The notes under the pieces are model-generated. The model worked only from the letters and a program-made list of their open reading frames with translations. It was not told where the DNA came from and did no database searches. Below, one piece after another: positions 2,116-30,670 of a DNA stretch of 64,000 bases. Each line of letters begins with the position of its first letter. Within the stretch, counting starts at the first letter, position 1. The position numbers and the translations under genes are program-made. The DNA comes from Bacteroides fragilis NCTC 9343 (lineage in GTDB: Bacteria > Bacteroidota > Bacteroidia > Bacteroidales > Bacteroidaceae): assembly GCF_000025985.1 (NCBI RefSeq), contig NC_003228.3:4278001-4342000 (forward strand). Reading direction: 5' to 3'.

Positions 2116-2249
2116 GCAGAGCCGGTTTCCAAAGCTTGCAGAGCCGGTGTTCACCTACTTTAGAGCCGTTGTTTTCCACATTTACACGGTTGCTTCCGCT
2201 ACTTTTCCCGGTATGTCGGCTCCCATTTCCCGGCATGAAAATCGTTTTT
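2116..2249 (+). repeat. Degenerate 22-bp-phased repeat array A (CCGG-centred)
   Basis: Six units start at 2118, 2140, 2162, 2184, 2206 and 2228, exactly 22 bases apart. The first three begin AGAGCC, and GCAGAGCCGGT is repeated exactly at 2116 and 2138. The last two begin TCCCGG. Identity between units is low apart from a GC core (CCGG or variants), but the spacing is rigid. It lies between two convergent operons and has no coding potential. Confidence 0.65.
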
Positions 2250-2394
2250 CACCAGAAGATAATTTCTTATCTCCTATTGATAATGAACAACGGAAAGGAT
2301 GAAGTCCCGAAAGTTAACAATACATAAATCTGCTATTGACCAAAATAGGCGGAAAGACAGCAGCCGGAACCGATACATCACAAAGTAAACGCGC

Positions 2395-2477
2395 CACAAA
2401 ATACACAGAGAGCACAAAGTTATTATATAGTGATTCTACATAATTAAAACTCCGTGCTCTCTGTATACTCTGTAGTG
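2395..2477. terminator. CACAGAG-type inverted repeat between convergent operons (copy 1)
   Basis: The left arm around 2395-2415 and the right arm 2454-2477 are inverted copies, with ACAGAGAGCAC (2405-2415) perfectly matched. An AT-rich loop of about 38 bases separates them. It sits just before the stop of mgsA and after the plus-strand operon, so it could end transcription in both directions. A second member of the same family occurs at 34089-34177 in the same kind of position. Confidence 0.55.
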
Positions 2478-2504
2478 AAATATATTTCGTAACCGAATAG
2501 GCTC

Positions 2505-3023
2505 TTATTTCTTTCTCTTTCTTTTCTTCACCGATTCTACCGCCTCGGTCACCACCGGTTTATTCTCGAAACGTTTCGTATAGCCCGAGTAGTCCGGATG
2601 TGTCCGTTCATAGTCCGGATCAAGGAAGAGCGGACTTGAAATAATATGATCGGCAGTGGAACGGTTGCAACAAAAGACGATGTTTTCCACACTTGCCAGA
2701 CGGGTCAGTGCCTTCACATCCGTATCGTGCGGCTGAAGAGTCATCGGGTCGGTAAAGAAGAAAAGATAATCGATCTCTCCATCCACAATACGCGATCCCA
2801 TCTGCTGGTCGCCGCCCAGAGGACCGGATTTCAGGATAGTAAAATCCCACTCCACATCGGGATGTTTCTCTTTCAATGCCTCCTGTATCAGCGTACCGGT
2901 GGTACCTGTACAATAAAACTTATGTCCCATCAATAACTCCGAGTTCCAAAGAACCCATTCAATCAGGTCTTTTTTCATAGCATCGTGCGCTACCAGCCCG
3001 ATTCTTCGAATTAGTTTTTCCAT
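2505..3023 (-). CDS. mgsA: Methylglyoxal synthase (MgsA)
   Basis: This 172-residue protein carries the MgsA signatures. It has VAHDAMKK near the N-terminus (substrate His, H13), GPLGGDQQMGSRI with the catalytic Asp (D72), and DPMTLQPHDTDVKAL with the conserved His and Asp (H99, D102). The enzyme turns dihydroxyacetone phosphate into methylglyoxal plus phosphate, a cytosolic bypass used when triose phosphates accumulate. It is about 20 residues longer than the E. coli enzyme because of a basic C-terminal tail (KKRKRKK). It is the last gene of a four-gene operon, four bases after the glycosyltransferase stop. Its place next to envelope genes is not explained by its reaction. Confidence 0.92.
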   Translation of the reverse strand: MEKLIRRIGLVAHDAMKKDLIEWVLWNSELLMGHKFYCTGTTGTLIQEALKEKHPDVEWDFTILKSGPLGGDQQMGSRIVDGEIDYLFFFTDPMTLQPHDTDVKALTRLASVENIVFCCNRSTADHIISSPLFLDPDYERTHPDYSGYTKRFENKPVVTEAVESVKKRKRKK

Positions 3024-3027
3024 AACG

Positions 3028-4059
3028 TCATCCTTTTAAATCTGATAATTGTGAAAAGAACTTCCGCCCTTTCACATAGAATTGCACTAAGATACTACTT
3101 TTTATCCGTTCGGGAATAAAGTGTGAGGAAGTTTTTCTGAGATTCTCCGCTCTTGCATCCCGGAAACTGTCACGTAACAACTTGAATTCGCGACGGGCAC
3201 GAACCACCGCTTTCGCATTGGCCGGCTGCCCTTTAAGCGCAAACGTAGCAGCCGCGATGTAATCGAGCCAGCAACGTACACGCATCACTCCGGCCAGTTC
3301 TCTGTCCGGAAGATTCTTGTAAAGCATGACAAGGTTATTACGAAAATTGAGGAAGGTCTTGTGCGGATTCTCCTTCTTCAACGTGGCTCCTCCTACATGA
3401 TAGACCACACTTTGGGGGATGCAAACAATTCCACGTCCGCGGGCACGGAGTCTCCAACAAAGATCGATCTCTTCCATGTGGGCAAAGAAGCGTCCGTCCA
3501 GTCCTCCCGCTTCGCGATAGTCCGCCAGACGGATGAACATGGCGGCACCGGTAGCCCAGAATATCGGCAGTACGGTGTCATATTGCCCTCGGTCCGCTTC
3601 GACTACTCCCATCACCCTTCCCCGACAAAACGGATATCCGTAGCGGTCGATGAATCCGCCGGCAGCTCCGGCATATTCGAACCATTCTTTTTGTCGCCAA
3701 CTGCGTATCTTCGGCTGGCAGGCAGCCACCTCAGGATGGGCGTCCAAATAGGCAGCCATCGGTTGCAACCACTGTCCGGTCACCTCGACATCGGAATTGA
3801 GCAACACCACATACTCGGCCTCCACCTGCCGAAGGGCAAGATTGTACCCATCTGCAAAACCATGATTCCCATCCAGCAGAATCCGGCGTACCGAGGGAAA
3901 CTCGCGGCGCAGCATCTCCACCGACTGATCCGTAGAACCGTTATCAGCCACACAGACTTCCACACCTTCAGCCTCCGAATATCGAAGCACGGAGGGAAGA
4001 AACGAACGGAGCATCTCGCAACCGTTCCAGTTCAATATAACGACAGATATCCTATTCAT
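3028..4059 (-). CDS. Family 2 glycosyltransferase (rhamnosyltransferase-like)
   Basis: A 343-residue GT-A enzyme. The N-terminus ISVVILNWNG, the nucleotide-binding ADNGSTDQS (about residues 38-46), the metal-binding LLNSDVEV (N88-S-D90) and a later MEEIDLCWR segment (acceptor/catalytic region of the family) are all present. Such enzymes use a nucleotide sugar to extend surface polysaccharides or lipid A core at the inner face of the membrane. Its start overlaps the acyltransferase gene by 8 bases, which indicates translational coupling and suggests that it works on the same envelope glycolipid. The sugar donor and acceptor are unknown. Confidence 0.88.
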   Translation of the reverse strand: MNRISVVILNWNGCEMLRSFLPSVLRYSEAEGVEVCVADNGSTDQSVEMLRREFPSVRRILLDGNHGFADGYNLALRQVEAEYVVLLNSDVEVTGQWLQPMAAYLDAHPEVAACQPKIRSWRQKEWFEYAGAAGGFIDRYGYPFCRGRVMGVVEADRGQYDTVLPIFWATGAAMFIRLADYREAGGLDGRFFAHMEEIDLCWRLRARGRGIVCIPQSVVYHVGGATLKKENPHKTFLNFRNNLVMLYKNLPDRELAGVMRVRCWLDYIAAATFALKGQPANAKAVVRARREFKLLRDSFRDARAENLRKTSSHFIPERIKSSILVQFYVKGRKFFSQLSDLKG

Positions 4060-4948
4060 TTTTCTTTTCGGGGCGTTTCAGTTTCCAACGCTTATGCGAC
4101 CATAGCCAATAGGCCGGTTCTTTCCGGATGGTCTGTTCCAGTCTGCGGGCAAATATTTCGGTAATCTCCCCGTCGGCTGTCTCCTTCGGACGGTCGGTTA
4201 CCAGATCGAAGTCTACCCGGCAATATCCTCTCCGCTCCTTCCGCAGCTCGCAATAGAAAACCGGAAAATCCATCATCTTGGCGATACGTTCGGCACCATC
4301 CATAAATACCGTATCCTGATTCAAGAAAGTAGTCCAATAATGGGCTTCATGCATATTGGGCGATTGGTCGGTAATCAGTCCGATGGCCATCTTCTTGCCG
4401 GCACGCTTCAACTTAATCACTTCGCGGGCGGTAGAGTGTTTCGGAACATTATATCCTCCGAAACGGGCACGGATGTATTTAAAGAGTCCATCCAGATAGA
4501 CATCTTTCAAGGGCTTGTATACCTGCACGGGCACATCGCCCGGACGCATAATCATTCCCATACCCGTAATCCACTCAAAATTAGCGTAATGGGGTATCAA
4601 CAGGACAATCCCGCCCCGTTCGTCTATCATCCGGAGGTAGGTTTCCTTATTCTCGTAGGTCATCCGTTTGCAAAGTTCTTTCTCCGACATGCGCAGCATT
4701 TTCACATCTTCGAGCATATAGTCGCAAAGATAATGAAAGAACTTGCGTTCGATGGCCTTCAATTCTGCTGCCGACTTTTCCGGAAAAGAGTTCTTCAGGT
4801 TGGTACGTACCACCTTCCTCCGGTAACCGATCACATGATACAGCCAGAAATAGATAAAATCGGACAGTGCATACAATACCGGAAACGGAAGAACAGCCAA
4901 AAGCCACATTCCTACATAGGTCAACAAATAGAGGAGTTTCGATTTCAT
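4052..4948 (-). CDS. Lipid A biosynthesis-type lauroyl/myristoyl acyltransferase (LpxL/HtrB family)
   Basis: A 298-residue protein of the LpxL/LpxM superfamily. It has a hydrophobic N-terminal anchor (about residues 5-28) and the HX4E catalytic motif HYANFE (H120, E125). Typical later segments are DQSPN and FMDGAERIAKMM, and the C-terminus WLWSHKRWK is a hallmark of the family. It transfers acyl chains from acyl carrier protein to a lipid A precursor or related lipid at the cytoplasmic face of the inner membrane. It lies two bases after mtaB and overlaps the glycosyltransferase, so it is the second gene of the operon. Which acyl position it serves is not shown. Confidence 0.85.
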   Translation of the reverse strand: MKSKLLYLLTYVGMWLLAVLPFPVLYALSDFIYFWLYHVIGYRRKVVRTNLKNSFPEKSAAELKAIERKFFHYLCDYMLEDVKMLRMSEKELCKRMTYENKETYLRMIDERGGIVLLIPHYANFEWITGMGMIMRPGDVPVQVYKPLKDVYLDGLFKYIRARFGGYNVPKHSTAREVIKLKRAGKKMAIGLITDQSPNMHEAHYWTTFLNQDTVFMDGAERIAKMMDFPVFYCELRKERRGYCRVDFDLVTDRPKETADGEITEIFARRLEQTIRKEPAYWLWSHKRWKLKRPEKKNE

Positions 4949-4950
4949 GT

Positions 4951-6270
4951 TTATTGTGTTATAGTTCCTTTCAGTGCGGTACCCTCTTCATTAAAATCTC
5001 CCAAAAGAACATTCACTACTTTATTATCCAACGCGGCGTCACTCTCCACTTCCACACGGATATAGTTTGCCGTAAATCCATGCATCGGCGCTCCCGCTTT
5101 GGGCTTTTCCATCAAGACAGGCATGGTCTGCCCGATGTAACGGGCATAAAAGGCTTTTGTTTTTTCATCCGACAGTGCAAGCAGACACTGGCTTCGCTGG
5201 TGTTTCTCTTCAGGAGTCACCACATGGTCTATTTTCAGGGCCTGGGTTCCCGGACGTTCCGAATAGCTGAACACATGCAGCTGGGTGACGTCCAGTCCGT
5301 GAATAAATTCATAAGCTTTCTCAAAGTACCCGGCAGTTTCGCCCCGGGTACCTACAATCACATCCACACCGATAAACGCATCGGGCATCACCTCTTTTAT
5401 CTTCGCAATCTTCGAAGCAAAAAGTTCTGTCCCATAGCGGCGACGCATCAGTTGGAGAACTTCGTCACTACCGGACTGCAAAGGGATATGGAAATGTGGC
5501 ATGAAACTGCGTGAACGGGATACGTATTCTATAATTTCATCCGTCAGCAAATTGGGTTCGATGGAAGAAATACGATAACGTTCGATACCTTCCACCCGAT
5601 CGAGGGCCTTTACCAGATCAAAGAAGGTCTCTCCGGTGGACTTTCCGAAATCGCCGATGTTGACTCCGGTCAGCACTATTTCCTTTCCGCCTTCGGCGGC
5701 AGCCTGCCGGGCCTGTTCCACCAAAGAAGCAATGGTACCGTTACGGCTTCGTCCGCGGGCAAAGGGAATAGTACAATAAGAGCAGAAGTAATCGCAACCA
5801 TCCTGCACTTTAAGGAAAAACCGGGTACGGTCACCTCGCGAACAAGACGGTGCAAACGAACGGATATCTTTTGTAGCGGTCGTATAGGCTTCTCCTCCTT
5901 CGTGCTTATGCAGGTCGCCCAGATACTGAAGCAAATCTTTCTTCTGTTCCGCACCGAGCACAACGTCCACTCCCTCTATCTTTGCCACATCGCCGGGTTT
6001 TAACTGGGCATAGCAACCTGTCACCACCACAAAAGCGCCGGGATGTTGTTTCACCAGCCGATGAATGGCCTGACGGCATTTCTTGTCCGCCATCTCGGTC
6101 ACCGAACACGTGTTGACAATACAAAGGTCAGCCTTTTCACCTTTCCGGGCTGTACGTACACCTGCCTCACGCAGGATTTTACCAATCGTCGAAGTCTCTG
6201 AGAAATTCAGTTTGCAGCCTAATGTATAATAAACGGCTGTCTTATCTTGAAATACAGTGGTATCTATCAT
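4951..6270 (-). CDS. mtaB: tRNA t6A37 methylthiotransferase (MtaB)
   Basis: A 439-residue MiaB/MtaB-family radical SAM enzyme. The N-terminal cluster cysteines are in LGCKLN (C19), NTCSV (C55) and TGCYAQ. The radical SAM cluster motif is CDYFCSYC (CxxxCxxC) near residue 160, and a TRAM-like domain lies at the C-terminus. MtaB adds a methylthio group to N6-threonylcarbamoyladenosine at position 37 of tRNAs reading ANN codons. NTCSV with LGCK and the length support MtaB over MiaB or RimO. It is the first gene of the mtaB-acyltransferase-glycosyltransferase-mgsA operon, with a -7 box 26 bases upstream. A gene for the t6A pathway (tsaC type) also lies in this window at 62965. Confidence 0.88.
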   Translation of the reverse strand: MIDTTVFQDKTAVYYTLGCKLNFSETSTIGKILREAGVRTARKGEKADLCIVNTCSVTEMADKKCRQAIHRLVKQHPGAFVVVTGCYAQLKPGDVAKIEGVDVVLGAEQKKDLLQYLGDLHKHEGGEAYTTATKDIRSFAPSCSRGDRTRFFLKVQDGCDYFCSYCTIPFARGRSRNGTIASLVEQARQAAAEGGKEIVLTGVNIGDFGKSTGETFFDLVKALDRVEGIERYRISSIEPNLLTDEIIEYVSRSRSFMPHFHIPLQSGSDEVLQLMRRRYGTELFASKIAKIKEVMPDAFIGVDVIVGTRGETAGYFEKAYEFIHGLDVTQLHVFSYSERPGTQALKIDHVVTPEEKHQRSQCLLALSDEKTKAFYARYIGQTMPVLMEKPKAGAPMHGFTANYIRVEVESDAALDNKVVNVLLGDFNEEGTALKGTITQ

Positions 6271-6295
6271 AATCTGTAAAAACGCATATTCAGCG

Positions 6296-6303
6296 CAAAG
6301 TTA
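6296..6303 (-). promoter_or_regulatory. -7 box of the mtaB operon
   Basis: The minus strand reads TAACTTTG here, matching TAnnTTTG, 26 bases upstream of the mtaB ATG. Most of the 428-base divergent gap 6271-6698 is taken up by this promoter, repeat array B and the acyl-CoA ligase promoter. Confidence 0.6.
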
Positions 6304-6407
6304 CACATTATTATTAGGAGTAAAGAGGTGAAAGGAGTTAAAAGGAGTTAGAGGGGACCGAAGAAGAGGTACGGGACGTGAAGGACACCGGAAAGAAACA
6401 TTCCACG

Positions 6408-6541
6408 TTTGTAAATCCTTCTGCCTGCATCAAAAGGCATCCCTCTTTGGTTTAAAACCAGGGAAGCATTGACTTTAAGCCAAAGACACCTGCCTTTTAA
6501 AGCAAGAGCCCGTTGCTTTAAAAGGTATTTCCGTGAAGGAT
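6408..6541. repeat. Degenerate 22-bp-phased repeat array B (TTTAAA-centred)
   Basis: Units built around TTTAAA or close variants recur with TAAA-like anchors at about 6412, 6432, 6453, 6476, 6498 and 6519, spaced 20-23 bases. Several units are dyads, for example GGTTTAAAACC and TGCCTTTTAAAGCA. The array lies between the divergent mtaB and acyl-CoA ligase genes, outside both promoters. No coding potential is seen. Confidence 0.6.
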
Positions 6542-6667
6542 AGAATGCTATATTTCAACCGATTAGAGAAGAGTACGGACAGTTATCGTTTCCTCTTCAT
6601 GTAAAGATATAAATAAACAATAAGCCTAATTAACACCTAAAGGTTTCTTAATCTGGAAGTTTATACC

Positions 6668-6675
6668 TACTTTTG
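6668..6675 (+). promoter_or_regulatory. -7 box of the acyl-CoA ligase gene
   Basis: TACTTTTG matches TAnnTTTG and lies 23 bases before the ATG at 6699. A weak -33 (GTTTC, 6643) is present at a suitable distance. Confidence 0.6.
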
Positions 6676-6698
6676 CACAAATCTTCAAAAAACGTGCA

Positions 6699-8372
6699 AT
6701 GATAAAAGAAAACTTCATTAAACTCTACGAGAACAGTTTCCGTGAAAACTGGGATTTACCTTGCTACACCAACTATGGCGAACCGGAAAGTTATACCTAC
6801 GGTGAAGTAGCCGAAGAAATAGCCAAACTTCATTTACTGTTCAAGCACTGTAGTTTGCGACGGGGAGATAAAATAGCCGTTATCGGAAAGAATAATGCCC
6901 GCTGGTGCATCGCTTACATGGCTACCATCACATACGGAGCCATCATAGTGCCCATCTTACAGGACTTCAATCCGAACGACGTACACCATATTGTCAATCA
7001 TTCCGAATCCGTTTTCCTTTTCACCAGTGACACCATCTGGGAGAATCTGGAAGAAGAACGCCTGACGGGTATCCGTGCTGTCTTTTCACTGACCGACTTC
7101 CGTTGCCTGCACCAGAGGGACGGAGAAACAGTACAGAAATTCCTGAAGCATATCGATCAGTACATGACAGATACTTATCCAAAGGGATTCCGGAAAGAAG
7201 ATGTGCTCTACACCACCCTGTCCAACGATAAGGTGATGCTGCTGAACTATACTTCCGGCACCACCGGATTCAGCAAAGGAGTGATGCTGACAGGCAACAA
7301 CCTGGCCGGCAACGTGACTTTCGGTATCCGCACGGAACTGCTGAAAAAGGGTGATAAAGTGCTTTCTTTCCTTCCGCTGGCCCATGCTTATGGATGCGCC
7401 TTCGACTTTCTGACAGCCACGGCAGTCGGTACGCATGTAACCCTTCTCGGTAAAGTGCCCTCACCCAAAATCATCATGAAAGCATTCGAAGAGGTAAAAC
7501 CGAATCTGATTATTACGGTACCGCTGGTCATCGAGAAAATCTATAAAAACGTGATCCAGCCTATCATCAGCAAAAAAGGAATGAAATGGGCCTTGAGCAT
7601 TCCTCTACTGGATAATCAGATTTATGGCCAGATCCGCAAAAAGCTGATCGATGCGCTTGGCGGACGCTTCAAAGAAATCATTATCGGTGGAGCCGCCATG
7701 AACCCGGAAGTAGAAGAGTTTTTCCACAAAATCAAGTTCCCCTTCACCATTGGCTACGGCATGACGGAATGCGGTCCGCTTATCAGTTATGCTCCTTGGG
7801 ACAAATTCGTCCCCTCTTCATCGGGCAAAATACTCGATATTATGGAAGCCCGCATCTATAAAGAGAATCCCGAAGCCGAGACCGGAGAGATTCAGGTACG
7901 GGGAGAGAACGTAATGACCGGATATTATAAGAACCCGGAAGCCACTCAGGAAGTGTTCACTAAAGACGGATGGTTGCGCACCGGTGACTTAGGCACCATG
8001 GATGACGAAGGCAATATCTTCATTCGCGGCCGACTGAAGACGATGATCCTCAGTTCAAGCGGACAGAACATCTTCCCCGAAGAAATCGAGGCTAAACTTA
8101 ATAATCTTCCATTTATTCTTGAAAGTCTCGTGATCGAACGAAACAAAAAACTGGTTGCCCTGGTCTACGCCGATTATGAAGCTTTGGACTCTTTAGGACT
8201 CAACCACGAAGACAACTTAAAAACGATCATGGACGAGAATCTGAAGAATCTGAATAATAATGTAGCCGCCTACGAAAAAGTAAGCCAGATCCAACTCTAC
8301 CCCACTGAGTTTGAGAAAACTCCGAAAAGAAGTATCAAACGCTATCTATATAACAGTATAGCAGAAGATTAG
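6699..8372 (+). CDS. Long-chain acyl-CoA ligase / AMP-binding synthetase
   Basis: A 557-residue adenylate-forming enzyme. The phosphate-binding motif YTSGTTGFSKGV is near residue 190. GYGMTECGP (motif A5) lies near 350, and the hinge region WLRTGDLG...FIRGRLKTMI with the following GQNIFPEEIE near 425-465. It activates a fatty acid to acyl-AMP and then to acyl-CoA in the cytosol or at the inner membrane. The FPEEIE motif and overall layout fit medium or long-chain fatty acid ligases (FadD/AAE type). It appears to be a single-gene unit with its own promoter. Substrate chain length cannot be read from sequence. Confidence 0.88.
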   Translation: MIKENFIKLYENSFRENWDLPCYTNYGEPESYTYGEVAEEIAKLHLLFKHCSLRRGDKIAVIGKNNARWCIAYMATITYGAIIVPILQDFNPNDVHHIVNHSESVFLFTSDTIWENLEEERLTGIRAVFSLTDFRCLHQRDGETVQKFLKHIDQYMTDTYPKGFRKEDVLYTTLSNDKVMLLNYTSGTTGFSKGVMLTGNNLAGNVTFGIRTELLKKGDKVLSFLPLAHAYGCAFDFLTATAVGTHVTLLGKVPSPKIIMKAFEEVKPNLIITVPLVIEKIYKNVIQPIISKKGMKWALSIPLLDNQIYGQIRKKLIDALGGRFKEIIIGGAAMNPEVEEFFHKIKFPFTIGYGMTECGPLISYAPWDKFVPSSSGKILDIMEARIYKENPEAETGEIQVRGENVMTGYYKNPEATQEVFTKDGWLRTGDLGTMDDEGNIFIRGRLKTMILSSSGQNIFPEEIEAKLNNLPFILESLVIERNKKLVALVYADYEALDSLGLNHEDNLKTIMDENLKNLNNNVAAYEKVSQIQLYPTEFEKTPKRSIKRYLYNSIAED

Positions 8373-8471
8373 ATATGTTTTAAAACATACAAAAAAACAT
8401 AATGAAACATTCTTCTAAAAAAAAAATAAAAAAAAGTTGGGCTTAGGAGTACAACATATACAAAAAGTACA

Positions 8472-8479
8472 TACCTTTG
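8472..8479 (+). promoter_or_regulatory. -7 box of the Ala-rich lipoprotein gene
   Basis: TACCTTTG matches the Bacteroides -7 consensus. The leader to the ATG at 8531 is about 45 bases. The region just upstream (8415-8440) is an A-tract, which may raise promoter strength. Confidence 0.6.
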
Positions 8480-8530
8480 CAGCGTTTTAATAAGCAATTG
8501 ATTGTATTACAGATTTAAAAAGCAAAGAAA

Positions 8531-8749: not shown

Positions 8750-8775
8750 TCTCGAACAACATTAGAGAGAATTGA

Positions 8776-8885: not shown

Positions 8886-9000
8886 GAAAGAAGTTAATAT
8901 CGCAGCAACAGGATATTAACATCCTGACTACAGCAAGTTAACTTCCTGTCATCAGCAAATTAACTTCGTATCAGCAAAGAAGTTAATATCGTAACGTCAC
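8886..9000. repeat. Degenerate 22-bp-phased repeat array D (TTAA-centred dyads)
   Basis: TTAA cores occur at 8894, 8916, 8938, 8960 and 8983, spaced 22, 22, 22 and 23 bases. Flanks alternate between GAAGTTAATATC and its near-inverse (GATATTAAC, AGTTAACTTC), and CAGCAA recurs between units. Each unit is a short dyad around TTAA. It lies between the convergent lipoprotein and rplI transcripts, between their two terminators. Confidence 0.7.
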
Positions 9001-9015
9001 ATAAGGATACTAAAA

Positions 9016-9071: not shown

Positions 9072-9515
9072 TTATTCAGCTACTACTTCGAAAGGAATTT
9101 CTACAGAAACTTCTTTGTGCAGTTTAACGATAGCTTTGTAAGCACCAACTTCTTTCACAGCGTCTTTTACAACGATGATCTTTCTGTCGATCTCGTGACC
9201 CAATTTAGCCAATTCCTCAGCAATCTGGATGTTACCAACAGAACCGAAGATAGTACCGGTTGAGCTAACTTTTGTAGCGATAGTCAATGATACGCCTTCC
9301 AACTTAGCAGCCAATGCTTCAGCATCTTTCTTGATTTTCTCAAGTTTGTGAGCACGTTGTTTCAGTTCTTCAGCCAACATTTTCTTTGCAGAAGGAGAAG
9401 CAATAACAGCTTTTCCAGTGGGGATCAAGTAATTACGACCATAACCAGACTTAACAGTTACGATGTCATTCTTATAACCCAAGTTTACTACGTCTTCTTT
9501 CAATATAATTTCCAT
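9072..9515 (-). CDS. rplI: 50S ribosomal protein L9
   Basis: A 147-residue L9. The N-terminal domain starts [13 protein letters not shown] and contains the family signature [14 protein letters not shown] central helix (residues about 40-75) leads to a C-terminal domain with [12 protein letters not shown]. It binds 23S rRNA at the base of the L1 stalk. It is the last gene of the conserved rpsF-rpsR-rplI operon, 11 bases after rpsR, and is followed by a terminator. Confidence 0.97.
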
Positions 9516-16224: not shown

Positions 16225-16370
16225 AGCAGACTTTTCGGTGCAAAACGGAGGTTTTTCCAACCAAAGAAGGGGGCATTTCGGGTTGAACACGGTGCATTTT
16301 CCCAAAAAGAAGCAAACATTCCGTGCAAAAGAAGTAAGCATTTCCGGAAAATGCTTACTTCTTTCGGGTG
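16225..16370. repeat. Degenerate 22-bp-phased repeat array C (TTTC/GCATTT core) with a perfect hairpin
   Basis: The C that ends a TTTC-like core recurs at 16236, 16257, 16279, 16301, 16321, 16344 and 16365, spaced 21, 22, 22, 20, 23 and 21. Units such as GGTGCATTTTCC and GTGCAAAA occur in both orientations. Two adjacent units form a perfect 15-bp inverted repeat (16329-16343 with 16349-16363, spacer CCGGA). No coding potential is seen. Confidence 0.65.
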
Positions 16371-24009: not shown

Positions 24010-24608
24010 AAGGCAGTCTCATTATCGTCTCTTTCTTCATTGTCGGCACTCTGTGCGGACTTCTTCAGCTGATCCCGTACGATTTCAGCCAAAGTAAACT
24101 CAGTTTTTATGCCTTATGCGGGCTGATGTTCTGCGTCGGCATTAGCATAGGCAACGATCCGCAGACACTGAAAAGTTTCCGGTCACTGAATCCCCGCCTA
24201 CTCTTCCTGCCCGTCATGACCATTCTGGGAACATTGGCTGGATGTGCCGTAGTCAGCCTCTTTTTGTCCCATCGTTCACCGTCCGATTGTATGGCGGTAG
24301 GTTCCGGATTCGGGTATTATTCACTCTCAAGTATATTCATCACCGAGTACAAAGGAGCCGAATTGGGTACCATCGCATTGCTTTCAAACATCATGCGCGA
24401 AATCATCGCTTTGCTTTGTGCCCCCCTATTGGTAAAGTTCTTCGGAAAACTAGCCCCCATTTCAGTCGGAGGAGCCACCACCATGGACACGACTCTTCCT
24501 ATTATCACCCGTTGTTCCGGACAGGAATTTGTCATCGTCTCCATTTTCCATGGATTCATTGTAGACTTTAGCGTACCGTTTCTGGTGACATTATTCTGCT
24601 CCATATAG
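24006..24608 (+). CDS. lysO: LysO-family lysine exporter, C-terminal part
   Basis: A 200-residue membrane protein with about five hydrophobic segments. Conserved LysO-like elements are CVGISIGND, AVGSGFGYYSLSSIFITEYKGAELG and the C-terminal GGATTMDTTLPIITRCSG segment. It overlaps the preceding gene by four bases (ATGA), a coupling arrangement and not a frameshift scar, since a proper ATG and upstream GGAGG (in aaaaGGAGGct) are present. The split in two chains is unusual compared with the E. coli protein but looks functional. Confidence 0.8.
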   Translation: MKGSLIIVSFFIVGTLCGLLQLIPYDFSQSKLSFYALCGLMFCVGISIGNDPQTLKSFRSLNPRLLFLPVMTILGTLAGCAVVSLFLSHRSPSDCMAVGSGFGYYSLSSIFITEYKGAELGTIALLSNIMREIIALLCAPLLVKFFGKLAPISVGGATTMDTTLPIITRCSGQEFVIVSIFHGFIVDFSVPFLVTLFCSI

Positions 24609-24744
24609 GCATCATATTACAAAACGATTTCAGTTTTCTCTAATATCCCATCTTTTTTACAGCATATTTTTGATATACATCAAGAAATGGTATCATTCTG
24701 CTCACTTTTCTTTCTTTGCGCTTTTATGTTGAATAACATATTTG

Positions 24745-24752
24745 TATATTTG
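24745..24752 (+). promoter_or_regulatory. -7 box of the small exported protein gene at 24873
   Basis: TATATTTG matches TAnnTTTG. The expected start near 24759 gives a leader of about 114 bases. Confidence 0.6.
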
Positions 24753-24770
24753 CATAGGTAAAAAGAAAAA

Positions 24771-24830
24771 GCTAAGCGCTTAGCAATTGTTTTTAATAGG
24801 TATTAGGGTCCTTATGACAAGGATAAGGAC
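24771..24830 (+). promoter_or_regulatory. Structured 5' leader with two hairpins
   Basis: GCTAAGCGCTTAGC (24771-24784) is a perfect 14-bp palindrome. Further on GTCCTTAT (24808-24815) pairs with ATAAGGAC (24823-24830) around a 7-base loop. Both lie between the promoter and the ATG at 24873. They may stabilise the mRNA or regulate translation. No known riboswitch class is recognised. Confidence 0.5.
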
Positions 24831-24872
24831 AAAGATTAGTTTTCAGGAATAACAATTAAAAAAGTAGGTATT

Positions 24873-25226
24873 ATGAAAAGATTAGGATTAACATTAGTGG
24901 CAGCGCTATGCCTTGTTGCTACTACATTTGCAGCAGGCAATCAACCTACAGTTGCAAAATGGGAAGGTAACATCAATGTGAATAAATTGGGTAAATACCT
25001 GAATTTATCTTCTGTACAGGCAGAAGAAGTAGCCAACATTTGCAACTATTTTGACGAACAGATGGGAAGAGCCACCACTGCGAAAAAGAACAAGGATACC
25101 ATGGTTCGTAACGCTGTTTACGGCAATCTGAAATTGATGAAAAAGACGTTGACAGATGCTCAGTACACTAAGTATACTACAATATTGAACATGACTTTGA
25201 AGAACAAAGGCATCGAAGTAAAGTAG
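24873..25226 (+). CDS. Small exported helical protein of unknown function
   Basis: A 117-residue protein with an N-terminal signal peptide (MKRLGLTLVAALCLVATTFAAG, cleavage near residue 21, no lipobox). The mature part of about 96 residues is predicted to be helical: LGKYLNLSSVQAEEVANICNYFDEQM, then NLKLMKKTLTDAQYTKYTTILNMTL. The pattern of two amphipathic helices with LT-x-x-Q-like TDAQY recalls Spy/CpxP periplasmic chaperone-like proteins, but the resemblance is weak. It has its own promoter, a structured leader and a terminator, so it is an independent unit probably tuned in expression. Confidence 0.75.
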   Translation: MKRLGLTLVAALCLVATTFAAGNQPTVAKWEGNINVNKLGKYLNLSSVQAEEVANICNYFDEQMGRATTAKKNKDTMVRNAVYGNLKLMKKTLTDAQYTKYTTILNMTLKNKGIEVK

Positions 25227-25251
25227 GAACTTGATTGATGAATAAAAGGAT

Positions 25252-25286
25252 AAAAGACCGGTGTCGTCGAATGAACTGACATCGGT
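25252..25286 (+). terminator. Terminator of the gene at 24873
   Basis: AAAAGACCG pairs with CGGTCTTTT, with additional inner pairing, followed by ATTTTTAT. It is 25 bases past the stop and also lies just beyond the end of the minus-strand ATPase gene. Confidence 0.75.
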
Positions 25287-25350
25287 CTTTTATTTTTATG
25301 CCAATCACTGACAGCCGCGAAGATGGTTAACACTGATGTTTCCGGTTAAA

Positions 25351-26481
25351 TCAGTAATTCCTCCTAAGCCAGATATTGAAAAGTCTATCATACACCTGAT
25401 ACCCTCCAGACTCCTGAGTCAACATGTCTTTTTCCAGTAAACCCTTCAACCCCGACTGCACCGAACTGGCAGAAGTCAACCGATATTTTTTAATAAATGC
25501 AGCAGAAGTAACTCCTTTTGCTTTCTGCTCCTTGGCAATGGCAATCATTATCTCTTTTTGCTTTTCCGGAAGACGAGAAAATATTTCTTGAAAAGTAAAG
25601 TCTTGTGTAGCAATTATATTGTTTAGTGCCAGATTTATCATAGGTACATCACAGATACCCTTTTTGTCTGTCAAAATAAAAAGTTCATTCAATATTAACT
25701 GCACATACCAAGTGTGCCCATCAAACAGGGTATATACATTCTCTACCAATTGATCTGTCACTTTCTTACCATTCTCCTCAAACAATCCCTTCACAAAAGG
25801 TTTATATACCTCCAAAGGAATTGCTCCTAAGTGCATCATACTCACGCTTTGATAAAATGGCCTGGAAGGACTGTTGAATATATTCATCATTATATGCCTC
25901 TGACTTCCTGCAAAAACAAAATTAGAGTTACTGCAATGCTGAACTTTAGTCCTTAAAATAGCTTCCAGATTTTTCTCCGGATATGAACTGATTTGCTGAA
26001 ATTCATCTATTGCTACAATACAAGGCTTGTCTGCCTGCTCCAGATAGATAAAGATTTCTTCTAGAGTAGTTTCAGGAGCATGAATATCTCCCAAACCAAG
26101 TTCTAAAATCGGTTCTCCTGTAATACTATCTAATTTAAATCCAATCCTTAAAGAGGTAATTATAGAAAAGAAACGATCTATGAATTTATTCCCCTGGGGC
26201 TTTAACTTCTCAAAAATCCCTTTACCCAAAGCAAAAACAAACTCTTTCAAACTTGAAGTCGCATATATATCAATGAAGAAAGTATAATAGCCTTCTTTAA
26301 TCAAAGGCTGATAAAAACAATGCCTTATCAATCCCGTTTTTCCCATTCGGCGAGTTGAAACAAGAGCCACATTTCTCCCATTTATCAAGTTACGGATCAA
26401 ATTTTCTGTTTCAGCAACTCTATCACAAAAATAACGAGGAGAAACGTATCCTCCAACTACAAAAGGATTAATAACCGCCAT
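25351..26481 (-). CDS. PF01637-type (archaeal ATPase family) AAA-like ATPase
   Basis: A 376-residue P-loop protein. NPFVVGGYVSPRYFCDR at the start and the Walker A region VALVSTRRMGKTGLIRH (G47-K48-T49) mark the family; the first Gly of Walker A is Ser. Walker B is CIVAIDEFQQI near residue 155. A C-terminal winged helix lies at about 300-370 (TSAAFIKKYRLTSASSVQSGL). Such ATPases are very common, often multicopy, in Bacteroides and occur near mobile or variable loci; their function is unknown. A perfect AT-rich inverted repeat covers the promoter. A decayed relative lies at 30734-31128. Confidence 0.85.
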   Translation of the reverse strand: MAVINPFVVGGYVSPRYFCDRVAETENLIRNLINGRNVALVSTRRMGKTGLIRHCFYQPLIKEGYYTFFIDIYATSSLKEFVFALGKGIFEKLKPQGNKFIDRFFSIITSLRIGFKLDSITGEPILELGLGDIHAPETTLEEIFIYLEQADKPCIVAIDEFQQISSYPEKNLEAILRTKVQHCSNSNFVFAGSQRHIMMNIFNSPSRPFYQSVSMMHLGAIPLEVYKPFVKGLFEENGKKVTDQLVENVYTLFDGHTWYVQLILNELFILTDKKGICDVPMINLALNNIIATQDFTFQEIFSRLPEKQKEIMIAIAKEQKAKGVTSAAFIKKYRLTSASSVQSGLKGLLEKDMLTQESGGYQVYDRLFNIWLRRNY

Positions 26482-26487
26482 AACTAA

Positions 26488-26524
26488 AATTATTATATTT
26501 ATAATTATTGCAAATATAATAATT
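26488..26524 (-). promoter_or_regulatory. Perfect 13-bp inverted repeat overlapping the ATPase promoter
   Basis: AATTATTATATTT (26488-26500) and its exact inverse AAATATAATAATT (26512-26524) flank an 11-base spacer. On the minus strand the -7 box TATATTTG (26511-26518) lies in the upstream arm and the ATG is 7 bases beyond the other arm. The repeat therefore covers the expected transcription start, as an operator would. It also overlaps the stop codon of the upstream glycosyltransferase gene. Confidence 0.6.
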
Positions 26525-27479
26525 ATCTTTTAGGTAAAAGATGCAAGTGAAAATATTTGCGCATAAGACCAATATATATTCCACTCAGCAAAAGGATACA
26601 GCCCAATAAATACCAATCACCATAACCCCGGCAATATAAATACCCAATAATAATCACAATTTGCACAATCATATACACCAACGATACCACCACGTGCGGT
26701 ATTCTCAATTCATTAACCATGATCTGATACAAATGTTTCCGGTGAGGCAAACCAATATTTTCATGTAGCAACAACCGGTGTATGATTGTCAACACACTAT
26801 CCACTCCATATACAGTAAGCATCACAAGCCAGCTGAAATCTTTCGTTTGAAGAATCAAACTCCCGATCAGGAACAGGACTACAAAAGCTATACTGACCGA
26901 ACCCACATCACCGGCGAAGCATTTCGCTCTCTTACGGAAATTAAAAAAGTCAAACACCAACACAGAACAAATCATCGTATAAATAAAATTCTGTTCTGTG
27001 AAGGAGATCACTTCTGCATTCACATATGCCAAAGAAACCAAGATAACCAATGAATACCCGCCGGTAATGCCGTTAATGCCATCCATAAAGTTATAGGCAT
27101 TGATAATCCCCGTACAGACGATCAGAGCGACAAGCAACGTCCACCAAGGCAAGCTGAACAACCCCCATTGATAGAACATCAGGGCCATTGCCGTAAAATG
27201 GAAGACTAAACGCAAACCCTGCGAAGTAGAACGGATATCATCTATAAAACTGATAAAAGTGATCAAGGTCAAAGCCAATATAAACCAAGGATATTCAAAC
27301 TGATTCGTCAGAAAAAAAGTCAATGCACTCAAATAGAAGATGATTCCTCTTCCTCTCAGAGTAATCCGAGTGTGTGAACTCCGCTCGTTTGGCTTATCGA
27401 TAATATTGCATTTATCAGCAATACGGAAATAAAAAAGTTCTGCCAGGAATAGCAGAACTAAGATTAGCAGATAACACAT
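26523..27479 (-). CDS. WecA/MraY-type undecaprenyl-phosphate sugar-1-phosphate transferase
   Basis: A 318-residue polytopic protein with about ten transmembrane helices. Family motifs are present: FIDDIRS (the Asp pair near 78), NAYNFMDGINGITGG near 127-141, CFAGDVGS near 188 and the cytosolic PHRKHLYQ near 246. It loads a sugar-1-phosphate, usually an N-acetylhexosamine, onto undecaprenyl phosphate to start repeat-unit synthesis. In Bacteroides, genes of this type usually close capsular polysaccharide operons after an epimerase gene, and the epimerase remnant is indeed just upstream. It is intact although its neighbours are broken. Confidence 0.85.
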   Translation of the reverse strand: MCYLLILVLLFLAELFYFRIADKCNIIDKPNERSSHTRITLRGRGIIFYLSALTFFLTNQFEYPWFILALTLITFISFIDDIRSTSQGLRLVFHFTAMALMFYQWGLFSLPWWTLLVALIVCTGIINAYNFMDGINGITGGYSLVILVSLAYVNAEVISFTEQNFIYTMICSVLVFDFFNFRKRAKCFAGDVGSVSIAFVVLFLIGSLILQTKDFSWLVMLTVYGVDSVLTIIHRLLLHENIGLPHRKHLYQIMVNELRIPHVVVSLVYMIVQIVIIIGYLYCRGYGDWYLLGCILLLSGIYIGLMRKYFHLHLLPKR

Positions 27480-27482
27480 AAA

Positions 27483-27581
27483 CTATTCGTTCTTTTTAAT
27501 GAAATAAAACCAAAGTTGAAGTCCTAAAAAGGCAAAAGAAATACCCCCTATTAGGAGTCCTATAATCCCCCAAAAATCCAC
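27483..27581 (-). CDS. Possible 32-residue membrane peptide upstream of the WecA-like gene
   Basis: A GTG at 27579-27581 opens a frame ending TAG at 27483. It encodes a single hydrophobic helix (WGIIGLLIGGISFAFLGLQL) followed by a basic tail (FIKKNE). AGGAGG lies six bases upstream of the GTG. The stop is three bases before the ATG of the WecA-like gene, so it could be a coupled small protein or a leader peptide. It is too short for a family call. Confidence 0.4.
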   Translation of the reverse strand: MDFWGIIGLLIGGISFAFLGLQLWFYFIKKNE

Positions 27582-27594
27582 TCACAATACCTCC

Positions 27595-28008
27595 TTATTC
27601 TATCTGAAAATTCTCCAAAACATTCATAGGTTTCCACCCAAGTTCACGCATAGCCTTTTCATTACTAAAAGTCAAAGAGTGCGTAATCTTACGAAGTTTT
27701 AAACTGTTTATTGGGATATTTTCCCCAAGACAATCACCAAAAACAGCCATACTTTTAGCAAACAATAAGGAATAGATATTGGTCTTTTTTTATTCAATTG
27801 CTTACATATCACCATCTCTAATTCACGAAAACTCAGCTGGTAACTGTCACAAACATTATATATCCCTCCCTTTTCAATCAATAGAGGAACAAGATTTGCT
27901 ATATCCTGAACCATCAAAACGCTTTTCCGAGCCAATACTTAAGTACTTACCATTTCTAATCCCATGAATCATCGCTCCTAAATTTCCCGAAGGATTAGGT
28001 CCGGCAAT
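27595..28008 (-). pseudogene. Truncated and frameshifted NAD-dependent sugar epimerase/dehydratase
   Basis: Three consecutive minus-strand frames encode parts of one protein. The first is PNPSGNLGAMIHGIRNGKYL, then RKSVLMVQDIANLVPLLIEK through YNVCDSYQLSFRELE, then NSLKLRKITHSLTFSNEKAM and RELGWKPMNVL to a TAA. These match the C-terminal third of short-chain NDP-sugar epimerases of polysaccharide loci. The first frameshift lies near 27925, probably a small deletion. The second is at a run of four G near 27724, where one more G would restore the frame. The N-terminal two thirds are missing; the break is near 28008. Confidence 0.75.
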
Positions 28009-28015
28009 TTAGGCT

Positions 28016-28143
28016 ACTATTGACGGAACGATAGATTCAGACGCAATGCTGAATAATTACTTATACGACTTCTTGTCGCACGAGATACCTAAAGAGACAA
28101 AAAATCAAACGATTTTCAACAATTTGATTATGAGTGAATTGTA
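28016..28143 (+). pseudogene. Short open frame, possible C-terminal gene fragment
   Basis: An in-frame stretch of about 41 codons (ATIDGTIDSDAM, then YLYDFLSHEIPKETKN, ending IMSEL and TAA) has coding-like composition and no start codon of its own. It begins at the same break where the epimerase remnant ends. I do not recognise the family. It is best read as the tail of a gene lost by deletion. Confidence 0.35.
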
Positions 28144-28756
28144 AAATTTTATAATATTTTCTCATAACTACGGTGTTGCATTGATACTGTTACACTATTG
28201 GTAAGTGATGTACTTCCTAGTAAGGCTACACCATTGGATTAATTCTTTTATTTGCTCAGAAAGAGCGAGAAAAATCTTCAGCTTAATCTAATAAATGATG
28301 CCTGTTTGCTGCAGAAGAAATTTCTTCCTAGTAAAGATGGAACTCGAAGAGGTGTAATACAAAAGAAAAAATACAAGAAGCATAAAAAGAAAGAAAAGCC
28401 TATTCTCAAACTTATTGATCCGCCTTTCCTGTTGGTAGAGGAGATTCATCTTAGCATGAAAAAGACAATAGATAAAAAACGGTATTCAGAAAGATCGTTT
28501 TGCTAAAATCAGAACGAGTATTAGTCCTTGTCTACAACTTTAAATTTTATTTACAGAATAATATATTTTAAAACAAAATCTAAGTAATAATTGGAATATG
28601 AACTATAAAAATTAATATTCTTTTTGTAATCTGATTTTTTCGTAAGATAGACTAAAGTGTTAAATTACGCAAAATATATCAACATATATTTACAATCAAA
28701 TTTATTTTGACTATATTAGAAAAATGTTCCTTCAATCTTTAAATATAATATGAACA
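28144..28756. other. AT-rich stretch without a convincing gene
   Basis: The sequence is low in GC compared with the rest of the window. A Lys-rich frame at 28252-28506 starts with TTG, has no ribosome site and resembles no family. CTTCCTAGTAA occurs at 28213 and again at 28324, encoding LPSK in open frames both times, which hints at decayed duplicated coding sequence. No promoter, RNA gene or mobile element end was recognised. Confidence 0.4.
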
Positions 28757-29320
28757 ATGGCACAGTTAGAATCTAAACAATTAAACAAAATTGGTTTACA
28801 TGAGAATGCTACCAATAGAAACATGGATGAAAAATTATTATTAAAGTGCGAAAATAGTATTCGCGCTTACAAAATTGTGAATTTGCTCAACAAGCATAAT
28901 ATTGCATTACGACAGCATGACGAGAGTCAGGATCCTAGGGTTGGTGCATATGGCGCCGTAACTGGTATTGCTATATATGTATTTGCTAAGGATTATGAAA
29001 AGGCTTTATCTATAGTTTCCCCTATTCTTAAAGATTTTAATACCATCAGTACATTCTGTCCAAAATGTGGAAGTGAAAATGTAAAACCCATTACTGGTAA
29101 TCACAAATATATTACTTATTTAATTTTCCTTTGCCTGTTCCTTATACTTACTCCTGGTATTTATATTGCTTTGCCTGAAGATTTTGGACTCAGGTCTTCC
29201 TTAATAAATAAAATAGCTTTAATGATGGTTGCGCTAGGTTTTATTTTAATGCCAATTATTAATCATTATAATGTTAATTATAAGTGTAAAAAATGCGGCA
29301 ATAGATTTAGGCATTATTAG
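28757..29320 (+). CDS. DUF2007-like domain protein with zinc ribbon and two membrane helices
   Basis: A 187-residue protein. Residues about 25-92 (LLLKCENSIRAYKIVNLLNK, then GAVTGIAIYVFAKDYEKAL) have the pattern of DUF2007 putative signal-transducing domains. A CPKCG knuckle near residue 100 and a CKKCG knuckle near 177 would together form a zinc ribbon. They are separated by two transmembrane helices (about 115-133 and 150-168), so both knuckles face the same side. It is the only intact plus-strand gene in the decayed region, and its codon use is as AT-rich as its surroundings. Function is unknown. Confidence 0.7.
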   Translation: MAQLESKQLNKIGLHENATNRNMDEKLLLKCENSIRAYKIVNLLNKHNIALRQHDESQDPRVGAYGAVTGIAIYVFAKDYEKALSIVSPILKDFNTISTFCPKCGSENVKPITGNHKYITYLIFLCLFLILTPGIYIALPEDFGLRSSLINKIALMMVALGFILMPIINHYNVNYKCKKCGNRFRHY

Positions 29321-29562
29321 CTTTATTGTTCATAATCGATTCTATTGTTTTATTACAACAGAATCAAGTTAATAAAAAGCGATTGTCTTACATAATAAAT
29401 GTTTTTTATTATGAGGTTTAAAATTCTGACCTTATCAGAAGCAGAACGGAAACTTCAGGCTGGTGAAAGCGACACTGATTTACTATGAAGCGGAATTCCA
29501 CAAGAAATACGATCCCATAAAATAGAAGGTCCTGTAGTCTATTGGAATGTAGATGAACAGCG

Positions 29563-30432
29563 ATGAACGACATTCCAGGTGGAGAACTTTATGGAAGAGA
29601 ACGCAATGGAAGTGATAGAGGCAAAATACGGAATAAAGGGCCCGGCAATCGTACTGAAGCTGCTTTGTAAAATATACAAGGAGAGATGCTACATACTTTG
29701 GGATGAGGAGCAGTGCCTGATCTTTGCCTACAAAGTAGAAAGGGAAGTGCAAACTGGGGAGGTACAGGGAATTATCGTAATTCTCTTTATCAAAGGAATA
29801 CTGGACAGAAGCAGTTGTCAGGAAAACGGAATACTGACCTCGGAAAACATACAGAAGGTATGGATGGAGGCAACAAAGCGGAGAAAGAAAGAGCTGTCGA
29901 AACTCCCCTACCTGATGGTGAAAACGGAAAAGGAAAACGGCAAACCGGACAATACATCCGCACAACAGGAAATAGAACAACCCAAGCCGCTTAAAGAAGG
30001 AAAAGTAGCTGTCGGCACAGGAAATGTAGCCGTTAGCCTGGGAAATGTAGTACGTCATGTAGCCGTTAACTCAAAAAATGCATGCAATTCCAGACAAAGT
30101 AAAGTAAAGAAAAGTAGAGCAAAGGAAAATAAAGAATTACCCCCTCAGCTCCCCCTGAGGGGAAGGAGGAAGAAAGGATGGAGGATTCTGCTTCTCTACC
30201 GATACCGGGATACGCCTTCAATACGATGACACACAATTATCCGGGACTGAAGGATACGCTCCAAAGATTGGGAATTAACGAGGTAAGTGAAGTAAATGCC
30301 ATTCTCAGACTGTCGGACTATGGAGGAAAGGGAACGACGGTGTGGCGGCTGATTACCAACACTTGTTGGAGTGACATAGTGTCAAAAGGAAGGTATCTGA
30401 TAGCGGCACTGAACAAGGCAAAAAGGAAATAA
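29563..30432 (+). pseudogene. Frameshifted DUF4373 (Lin1244/Lin1753-like) gene
   Basis: The N-terminal domain (EVIEAKYGIKGPAIVLKLL, CKIY, YILWDEEQCLIFAYKV, GILTSENIQKVWMEATKRRKK) matches the DUF4373 family found in Bacteroidota. The conserved C-terminal domain (HNYPGLKDTLQRLGI, ILRLSDYGGKGTTVWRLI) follows in another frame from about 30178 to 30432. The shift lies near 30170, in a purine-rich run. At the 5' end an ATG at 29563 is one base out of frame with TFQVENF, where homology starts, so an extra G near 29569 may also have broken the start. Alternatively a GTG at 29579 is used. Intact relatives occur beside capsule loci. Confidence 0.65.
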
Positions 30433-30582
30433 ACGGATAGGGTAAGTTCCCTGTGTATAGTTGACAAAAAAGCAAGTATATCGGCTCTAACCTGAGAGAC
30501 CTTCAGTGAAGCTAAAAAATAAAAATCAAACTTAACAAGCTAAAATACAAGCTATTCAAAGTTCAAAACATCTGTCAGTAAA

Positions 30583-30670
30583 AACTTGTTTTAACACAGT
30601 GTTAAAGCTTGTTCTTTAGATGTGAATAACAAGTTCTTTAAATGCAAAAGATTTGTTATTTGCACACAAG
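30583..30670. repeat. Degenerate 22-bp-phased repeat array E (TTGTTCTTTA core)
   Basis: GTT cores at 30588, 30611, 30633 and 30655 are spaced 23, 22 and 22 bases. GTTCTTTA occurs exactly at 30611 and 30633, and units carry ATG or TGCA seven to nine bases later. A 7-bp dyad TTTAACA-CAG-TGTTAAA lies inside. The array is in the 300-base gap between the DUF4373 and ATPase remnants, which holds nothing else recognisable. Confidence 0.55.

Follow-up and report, generated by a model that had tools for sequence, protein, structure and literature searches.

Intergenic arrays with a 22- or 23-bp lattice in Bacteroides and their association with HU-like genes of the HU-HIG branch

Among the closest described systems is BrickBuilt, a miniature inverted-repeat transposable element (MITE) of Porphyromonas gingivalis that carries a 23-nt minisatellite, is intergenic and is present in 19 copies in one strain; 22- and 23-nt repeats are also mentioned for P. 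gingivalis W83 (PMC4596501). The present analysis concerns five arrays, denoted A to E, in a 64,000-nucleotide stretch of the Bacteroides fragilis NCTC 9343 genome (contig NC_003228.3, positions 4,278,001 to 4,342,000; hereinafter, the window). A preliminary description of these arrays attributed to all of them a rigid 22-bp period without a shared sequence. We found that the window arrays are part of a large class of intergenic arrays in Bacteroides, and we consider it probable that these are protein-binding elements, with sites every 22 or 23 bp, and that paralogous HU-HIG proteins each read an array family of their own.

BrickBuilt resembles the arrays in that it belongs to Bacteroidales, is always intergenic, has a 23-nt tandem period and varies in repeat number between strains, and differs from them in its contiguous repeats without spacers, its leader and tail, and its inverted-repeat ends (PMC4596501). 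In the array families F4 and F5 (defined below), unlike in BrickBuilt, the sites number about four and are separated by 9-bp spacers that are nearly unrelated to one another, and no common flanks are discernible by eye; copies of family F2, in contrast to F4 and F5, do have some flanking sequence in common. Repetitive extragenic palindromes (REPs) and bacterial interspersed mosaic elements (BIMEs), which are linked to REP-associated tyrosine transposases (RAYTs), are likewise dispersed extragenic units, often palindromic and in small clusters, from which the arrays are set apart by the strict 22-23-bp lattice and by the many unrelated cores in a single genus (PMC3733652). The FopS small RNAs appear unrelated to the arrays (PMC11697453). 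A REP/BIME system with a RAYT was considered and rejected: PF01797 had no matches in the NCTC 9343 genome, although it was found in 5 of 14 control genomes.

Plasmid iterons, ParB-parS and MatP-matS are all cases of tandem or dispersed sites for one protein, with the iterons spaced by nearly two helical turns. Unlike plasmid iterons, the arrays are chromosomal and fall into many families, and a comparison of F1 and F4 with plasmid records gave no matches. HU and IHF bend DNA strongly, and HU is usually described as non-specific; an expansion of the HU superfamily in Bacteroidetes was reportedly noted by Burroughs in 2017. The arrays are connected to HU/IHF and to the HU-HIG branch of this superfamily (PF18291, TIGR01201) by the genes behind the 23-bp arrays, which encode superfamily members; unlike HU as usually described, each HU-HIG subtype here pairs with its own site array. 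Dispersed site arrays of a DNA-binding protein are a known kind of element, of which the present arrays would be a version with many protein-specific codes. Searches of the open-access literature yielded no description of such arrays in Bacteroides, nor of a connection between them and HU-like genes.

Lattice, families and free spacers

The arrays of the window, and the gene used as an anchor for the comparison of orthologous gaps, are as follows (window coordinates):

Array A, 2116..2249, no strand: six 22-bp units with a directional AGAGCCGG-like core, convergent genes on either side
Array B, 6408..6541, no strand: family F3, 22 bp, TTGGTTTAAAACCAA-like dyads, divergent genes on either side
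Array D, 8886..9000, no strand: family F1, five 22-bp units with GAWRTTAAYWTC dyads, 3' of rplI
Array C, 16225..16370, no strand: family F8, 22 bp, AAGAAGTAAGCATTT units, one inverted copy giving a hairpin
Array E, 30583..30670, no strand: weak 22-23-bp array within a dispersed repeat, followed by GTTAACATTGTTAA
rplI (ribosomal protein L9), 9072..9515, minus strand: name read from the sequence; anchor for orthologous gaps in 80 named genomes

Each array was compared with 1000 dinucleotide shuffles at lags 8 to 49. Lag 22 was the best for A (z 5.8), B (z 4.6), D (z 6.4) and C (z 5.6), and none of the 1000 shuffles reached the observed value for any of the four; array E was marginal (lag 22 z 2.9, p = 0.008), with 48 as its best lag. 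The proposed 22-bp period is therefore firm for A to D and weak for E, which is a longer dispersed repeat and may be a different thing from A-D. E (window 30450-30720) sits within a dispersed element about 90-130 bp long, with relatives at 4120790, 1417440 and 4416270 of the same genome, and a palindrome, TTAACATTGTTAA or TTAACAATGTTAA, follows in all four copies seen.

The periodicity extends far beyond the window. Across 398 intergenic gaps, which amount to 100 kb and come from 864 kb of the NCTC 9343 genome, matches show peaks in frequency at lags 21-22, 42-44 and 63-66, with very short lags likewise elevated, whereas coding sequence in the same test shows a 3-base rhythm alone. When 66-bp windows with at least 36 matches were counted in 339 gaps, lag 22 was represented in 15, lag 23 in 3, lag 21 in 2, lag 44, the double period, in 6, and lag 46 in 2, compared to 0-1 gaps at each other lag in the range of 14-47. 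A lag-switching detector, in which the lag may drift, was applied to 172 kb of intergenic sequence (679 gaps drawn from 1.6 Mb of this genome) and yielded 36 arrays with a score of at least 18 at lags 20-24, as opposed to 5, 0, 9 and 1 at the control lags 15-19, 25-29, 30-34 and 35-39, respectively, and 1 in shuffled gaps. An intergenic excess of the 22-bp period over shuffled sequence, as anticipated in the preliminary description, is thus clear in both the lag test and the detector run. The detector skipped array C because a 137-amino acid open reading frame, taken as spurious, covers it; this array was tested directly for period and constraint, and other arrays covered by open reading frames may escape in the same way. 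If the scanned 1.6 Mb are typical, a genome would contain about 100 arrays.

Around rplI in the 80 named genomes (80 loci, 743 gaps), at a threshold of at least 40 matches in 66 positions, lag 22 was found in 31 gaps, lag 21 in 10 and lag 23 in 7, lags 16, 17, 19, 20, 25, 26, 28 and 29 in none, and lags 15, 18, 24 and 44 in 14, 12, 6 and 12 gaps, respectively, partly in coding-like sequence. Four 50-kb stretches of E. coli K-12 (200 kb and 88 gaps, a small control) contained no array with a score of 18 and two with a score of 16. The arrays occur in every gene orientation, with several located between convergent genes. Palindromic cores are common and not universal, with a dyad at p < 0.05 in 26 of 61 arrays against about 3 expected.

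Although the window arrays differ in their cores, as was originally observed, the cores of B, C, D and E recur at unlinked loci and so represent dispersed families: that of B is found also at 4135957 and 4167450 of the same genome and, less clearly, at 3090737, and family F1, to which D belongs, is present at many unlinked loci. For array A, the orthologue in another B. fragilis was the one further copy seen, and no second locus was detected. At least nine families, including the E type, are present in the NCTC 9343 genome; the names F1 to F8 were coined in this analysis:

F1: GAAGTTAACTTC; array D
F2: around CCCGGGTA
F3: GGTTTAAAACC; array B
F4: AACAT-SSSS-ATGTT; 23 bp
F5: GACA-...-TGTC; 23 bp
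F6: GAGTTGTACAACT; 23 bp
F7: GGATGGCTACACCC
F8: AAGAAGTAAGCATTT; array C

The period is 23 bp in F4, F5 and F6 and about 22 in the remaining families, so that 22 bp is the rule for some families and not for the class as a whole.

The organization of the sites is best seen in F4 and F5, for which 29 partly non-independent arrays were collected from NCTC 9343, B. fragilis Q1F2 and other Bacteroides. All 61 pairs of neighbouring strict sites in these arrays are spaced by 23 bp, a count biased by the retrieval of most arrays through a pattern that fixes this step; in sequence fetched regardless of arrays, with distances of 16-32 allowed, 19 of 19 strict neighbours are also 23 bp apart. The strict F1 sites in such array-blind sequence are spaced by 22 bp in 3 of 3 cases, and over all F1 loci, with a similar bias, 26 of 28 distances are 22 bp and two are 23. 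Neighbouring F4/F5 sites are 0.86 identical, partly by construction, whereas the 9-bp spacers between them are 0.41 identical compared to 0.35 expected from position-wise composition. The previously proposed conservation of spacing rather than sequence thus holds in part: these families keep both the site and the spacing, and it is the spacer letters that are free. Fixed spacing combined with unrelated spacers calls for a sequence-specific binder. Counting sites with at least 11 of 14 matches, 18 arrays have four sites, 6 have three, 2 have two, 2 have five and 1 has eight. The half-sites AACATCC, AACACCC and AACATGG combine with one another, and the pairing of two TGG half-sites was never seen against 3.4 expected. 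In one F5 site compared between two close genomes (1211066 in NCTC 9343 and G016:C4:197891), a whole half-site is switched from TGG to CCC, still within the family.

Of 99 genomes, 24 contain F4/F5 patterns (none with the reversed pattern as a control) and 6 contain F1 (control, 1). A plasmid or phage origin was considered and rejected: F1 had no phage or plasmid match, F4 had no plasmid match and one unverified phage-record match, and the strict F1 and F4 patterns had no matches in IMG/VR. The record in question, MT838576.1, is an unverified, unannotated 5.4-kb 'Bacteriophage sp.' scaffold that may be bacterial sequence; it contains five F4-type sites with 23-bp spacing at 3229-4113 (locus L237).

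Two other families have features of their own. In the F2 copies (38237 and 174784 in NCTC 9343, and in Q1F2), the upstream flank is shared over about 70 bp and the ends are imperfectly inverted, which is not the case for F4; for this reason F2 may have spread as a unit. The F7/F8 arrays (1580872 and 4159700 in NCTC 9343; window 16320-16370) end in a hairpin, one arm of which is a repeat unit and the other an inverted copy on the same 22-bp lattice; the F7 hairpin is followed by a T-run and so looks like an intrinsic terminator.

HU-HIG genes behind the 23-bp arrays

HU-like proteins are recurrent among the products of genes adjoining the F4/F5 arrays. The NCTC 9343 genome contains 13 matches to the HU-HIG family, of which ten read as HU-HIG and three as plain HU-like proteins. 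Three of the HU-HIG proteins are of a VRKK type, starting with MSINYAVTKK, MPINYVVRKK and MGLIYLVRKK, and each of the three genes has a 23-bp array directly upstream; these arrays belong to F4, F5 and F6, that is, all three clear 23-bp families seen in this genome. The three VRKK-type genes are located at 293840-294340 (encoding a protein of 166 amino acids), 1210563-1210991 and 4246012-4246503.

An alignment of five such proteins was used to search 60 Bacteroides genomes that are at least 95% complete, in which HU-like genes are multiplied: at E 1e-15, a single genome has as many as 12 close matches. The locus of the best match was obtained for 30 genomes, including three loci that had suggested the idea (L251, L252 and L257), and an array was present within 400 bp upstream in 30 of 30 cases at a score of at least 13 and in 29 of 30 at a score of at least 30. 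Forty further matches were taken from those listed: the upper group of 20, with 73.6-133.2 bits, had upstream arrays in 20 of 20 cases (16 of 20 at score 20), and among the weakest 20 taken (64.5-72.3 bits), 8 had one, 5 of these at score 20. Genes of NCTC 9343 served as the null: at score 13, an upstream array was found for 28 of 412 and for 66 of 800, and at score 30 for 10 of 800; where the upstream gap was required to be 200 bp or longer, the counts were 51 of 324 and 9 of 324 at scores of 13 and 30, respectively. The cores differ between the HU-HIG subtypes and include AACATCCGGATGTT, GACACCCGGGTGTC, GAGATGTACATCTC, AAGATGCCATCTT (with a 22-bp period), TTTGATATACATCAAA, TTTAGACCCGGGTCTAAA and others, and the third group of matches, from other species, includes 22-bp and directional cores. 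A differing period was observed at one locus (L344, G034:C10:105310-106209), where a near-perfect 20-bp tandem repeat, TGAATCCACTTAAGACACAA, is located upstream of a HU-HIG gene of another subtype.

By sequence, the proteins encoded behind the 23-bp arrays are assigned to the HU superfamily, HU-HIG branch. All three VRKK-type proteins of NCTC 9343, along with those of loci L223 and L227, score above the cut-off of Pfam PF18291; two of the three exceed that of the NCBIfam family HU_rel, and the third comes close to it (68.4 bits against a cut-off of 68.6). The ten PDB sequence matches at E 0.01 are all HU, and for an AlphaFold2 model (mean predicted local distance difference test score 75), Foldseek placed HU/IHF first, albeit weakly (best E 0.03, none at 0.001). 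Across the order, few genomes have relatives at E 1e-15 (4 of 89, of which two are Bacteroides). We know of no assigned role for most Bacteroides HU-HIG proteins.

The presence of a core follows that of the corresponding protein. As a test of prediction, the core upstream of the MGMIYLVRKK subtype, which is present in four genomes, was converted into a pattern and searched for in the 60 genomes: all four genomes with the subtype contain it (11-23 matches, of which 8-20 lie away from the upstream array), compared to 3 of the 56 others (15, 2 and 1 matches; p = 7e-5). Likewise, among the 49 genomes covered by both searches, at least five F4/F5 matches were detected in 12 of the 13 with a match of at least 190 bits to the F4-type protein and in 1 of the 36 without (12, 1 and 1, 35; p = 2e-9, with p-values of 8e-5 to 3e-9 for alternative cut-offs, the 190-bit value having been picked after seeing the data). 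Since the genomes share ancestry, these p-values assume more independence than there is. A 400-kb stretch of Q1F2 contains, some 158 kb from its start, a counterpart of the HU-HIG gene linked to F6 that covers residues 51-140 only, with its pieces in different frames; F6 sites were not found in that stretch, so that the gene and the array seem to have been lost together.

Constraint and turnover between genomes

To measure constraint, one 400-kb stretch of NCTC 9343 was aligned to Q1F2, and seven arrays could be aligned without large gaps. In these arrays taken together, 75 of the 617 positions that match a neighbouring unit differ between the genomes, compared to 86 of the 358 remaining array positions (p = 3e-6). 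The difference between repeated and other positions is apparent in array C (10 of 83 against 25 of 60), in the F3 array at 4135957, a relative of B (6 of 71 against 9 of 34), in an F7 array (2 of 46 against 5 of 13), in the F8 array at 4461065 (21 of 145 against 21 of 69) and in an AT-rich array at 4429475 (10 of 88 against 12 of 50). In one F4 array compared between genomes, the sites differ at 1 of 56 positions and the spacers at 7 of 27. For F1, the sites differ at 12 of 336 positions, the spacers at 19 of 219 and the flanks at 121 of 1042 (six comparisons of four NCTC 9343 arrays), a biased result, given that likeness to F1 was the criterion by which the partner loci were retrieved; when the two most diverged comparisons are left out, the sites differ at 4 of 228 positions and the flanks at 31 of 690 (p = 0.07).

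Whole arrays turn over, and the conservation in sister genomes expected in the preliminary description was borne out in part. In Q1F2, the position of array A is kept and its sequence largely so, and array C is diverged, with 22-bp differences and with its repeated positions better kept; in contrast, array D is represented by one unit instead of five, with 88 bp less, and array B is absent, the gap there being roughly 250-290 bp. The gap at 4212573 of NCTC 9343 contains an F1 array, and its counterpart in Q1F2 contains an array with another core. Array C lies upstream of an EF-G-like gene and a HemN-like gene (neighbours identified by Pfam), and in 12 of 46 loci the gap 5' of the EF-G-like gene holds an array, with cores that vary; no array was found in the neighbouring gaps W12/W13 and W10/W11 (46-51 loci). 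Given that the arrays in the EF-G gap differ in core, some gaps keep an array while the core changes, and across species orthologous gaps often hold arrays with different cores.

Proposed function and alternatives

The gene context and the co-occurrence of cores with proteins suggest the following model, in which each array would consist of about four (3-6) sites for one sequence-specific protein. Each HU-HIG paralogue of the VRKK kind would bind its own array family as a dimer, with one half-site per subunit, and may control its own gene via the upstream array. Given that 22-23 bp amount to about two helical turns, the bound proteins would line up along the same side of the helix. HU-HIG may bend or wrap DNA at the dispersed arrays, and four in-phase bends over about 92 bp could close a small, compact loop, which would explain why there are four sites. 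The preliminary description proposed that a dimeric protein or a nucleoid protein binds cooperatively, with every dyad on the same face of the helix; this fits the data well, and for the 23-bp families, the gene context points to HU-HIG as the candidate, whereas for the families of the window no binder gene was found in the roughly 30% of the genome scanned.

For arrays A-D, the attribution to HU-HIG-type proteins is by analogy: they share the lattice, size and intergenic placement with the HU-HIG-linked arrays, and no cognate gene was found in the part of the genome scanned. Families F1, F3, F8 and array A may have the same architecture, with either an HU-like or another binder. No F1, F3, F8 or A array was found upstream of any of the ten HU-HIG genes found by PF18291 in NCTC 9343, and no candidate emerged among the neighbours of F1 arrays in six genomes, the genes downstream of arrays with a score of at least 18 (1.6 Mb), the HU-DNA_bdg family or extra F1 loci.

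Several observations weigh against a general link between arrays and HU-HIG proteins. In about 30% of the NCTC 9343 genome and in single loci elsewhere, no HU-HIG or other DNA-binding gene was found to have an F1, F2, F3, F7, F8 or A array upstream. Conversely, the other seven HU-HIG genes of this genome lack an array within 400 bp upstream (two of them have weak arrays 580 and 890 bp away), as do 12 of the 20 weakest matches in the other genomes. Three genomes outside the MGMIYLVRKK subtype carry the predicted core, one of them 15 times, and two of these (G058 and G049) have further HU-HIG matches of similar score; the four genomes that fit the prediction have many identical arrays in common and hence are not independent. 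Palindromes are lacking in some array families, the repeated positions of arrays A and E are no better conserved than the others (differences at 15 of 100 repeated and 9 of 59 other positions in A, and at 11 of 84 and 5 of 73 in E), and neither of the F1 arrays located in the unbiased stretch (D and the one at 4212573) is kept in Q1F2.

Some of these observations would be expected if the 22-bp arrays of the window were relics, the cognate HU-like protein having been lost and the units being in decay: the units of A-E are poorly conserved, D is down to one unit in Q1F2, where neither F1 array of the unbiased stretch is kept, A and E lack extra conservation, and no cognate gene turned up in the scanned 30% of the genome. 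Nevertheless, in C and in other arrays of F3, F7 and F8, fewer differences from Q1F2 are seen at the repeated positions than elsewhere in the array, and the F1 sites differ less than the flanks, subject to the retrieval bias and the weaker contrast after trimming, which makes the relic explanation unlikely. We deem it quite unlikely that the arrays are minisatellite-bearing mobile repeats spread by a transposase, either MITE-like as BrickBuilt or REP/BIME-like. Such mobility would account for the dispersal of the families through intergenic DNA, the common flanks of some F2 copies, the patchy distribution of F4/F5 and F1 among the 99 genomes and the differences in presence between close species, but not for F4/F5 copies without common flanks (by eye) or for their nearly unrelated neighbouring spacers, unlike those of copied elements; furthermore, a Y1 (RAYT-type) transposase was not found in NCTC 9343, and the arrays are far more common upstream of HU-HIG genes than of other genes.

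A role at the RNA level, as tandem hairpins, terminators or small RNAs, appears very unlikely: apart from the terminal hairpins of the F7 and F8 arrays with a unit as one arm, the terminator-like T-run of F7 and the resemblance of array E to a transcribed repeat, the evidence runs in the opposite direction, with no Rfam matches in window positions 1-35000, a stem pair that is C.A in some units and T.G in others within one strand of a single F4/F5 array, mixed half-sites in F1 (by eye) and arrays in every gene orientation. If units had been duplicated neutrally in tandem, preferably in steps of about 22 bp, and had then decayed, this would yield the difference of exactly 88 bp, or four units, between array D and its Q1F2 counterpart. 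Such duplication is nonetheless highly improbable as an account of the class, considering that the spacer letters of F4/F5 were not copied along with the sites, that the number of F4/F5 sites clusters at four and that one core is found at many unlinked loci and tracks a protein; slippage in particular was rejected for F4/F5 on account of the free spacers. Neighbour-gene operators were rejected as a general rule because orthologous gaps differ in core and several arrays lie between convergent genes.

Protein-binding arrays read by HU-HIG paralogues thus remain our preferred explanation. Beyond it, one could tentatively envisage a nucleoid system of private codes, in which fast-diversifying HU-like proteins, each with its own motif, would organize the chromosome via dozens of looped four-site arrays, and the arrays and proteins would turn over together between species, perhaps through conflict with mobile DNA; this is a possibility that we put forward with considerable reservation. 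If each HU-HIG protein reads its own array family, the targets of these proteins could be listed from the sequence alone, and the arrays would gain a function. If this is true, Bacteroides would present a large natural experiment in how HU-type proteins gain sequence specificity.

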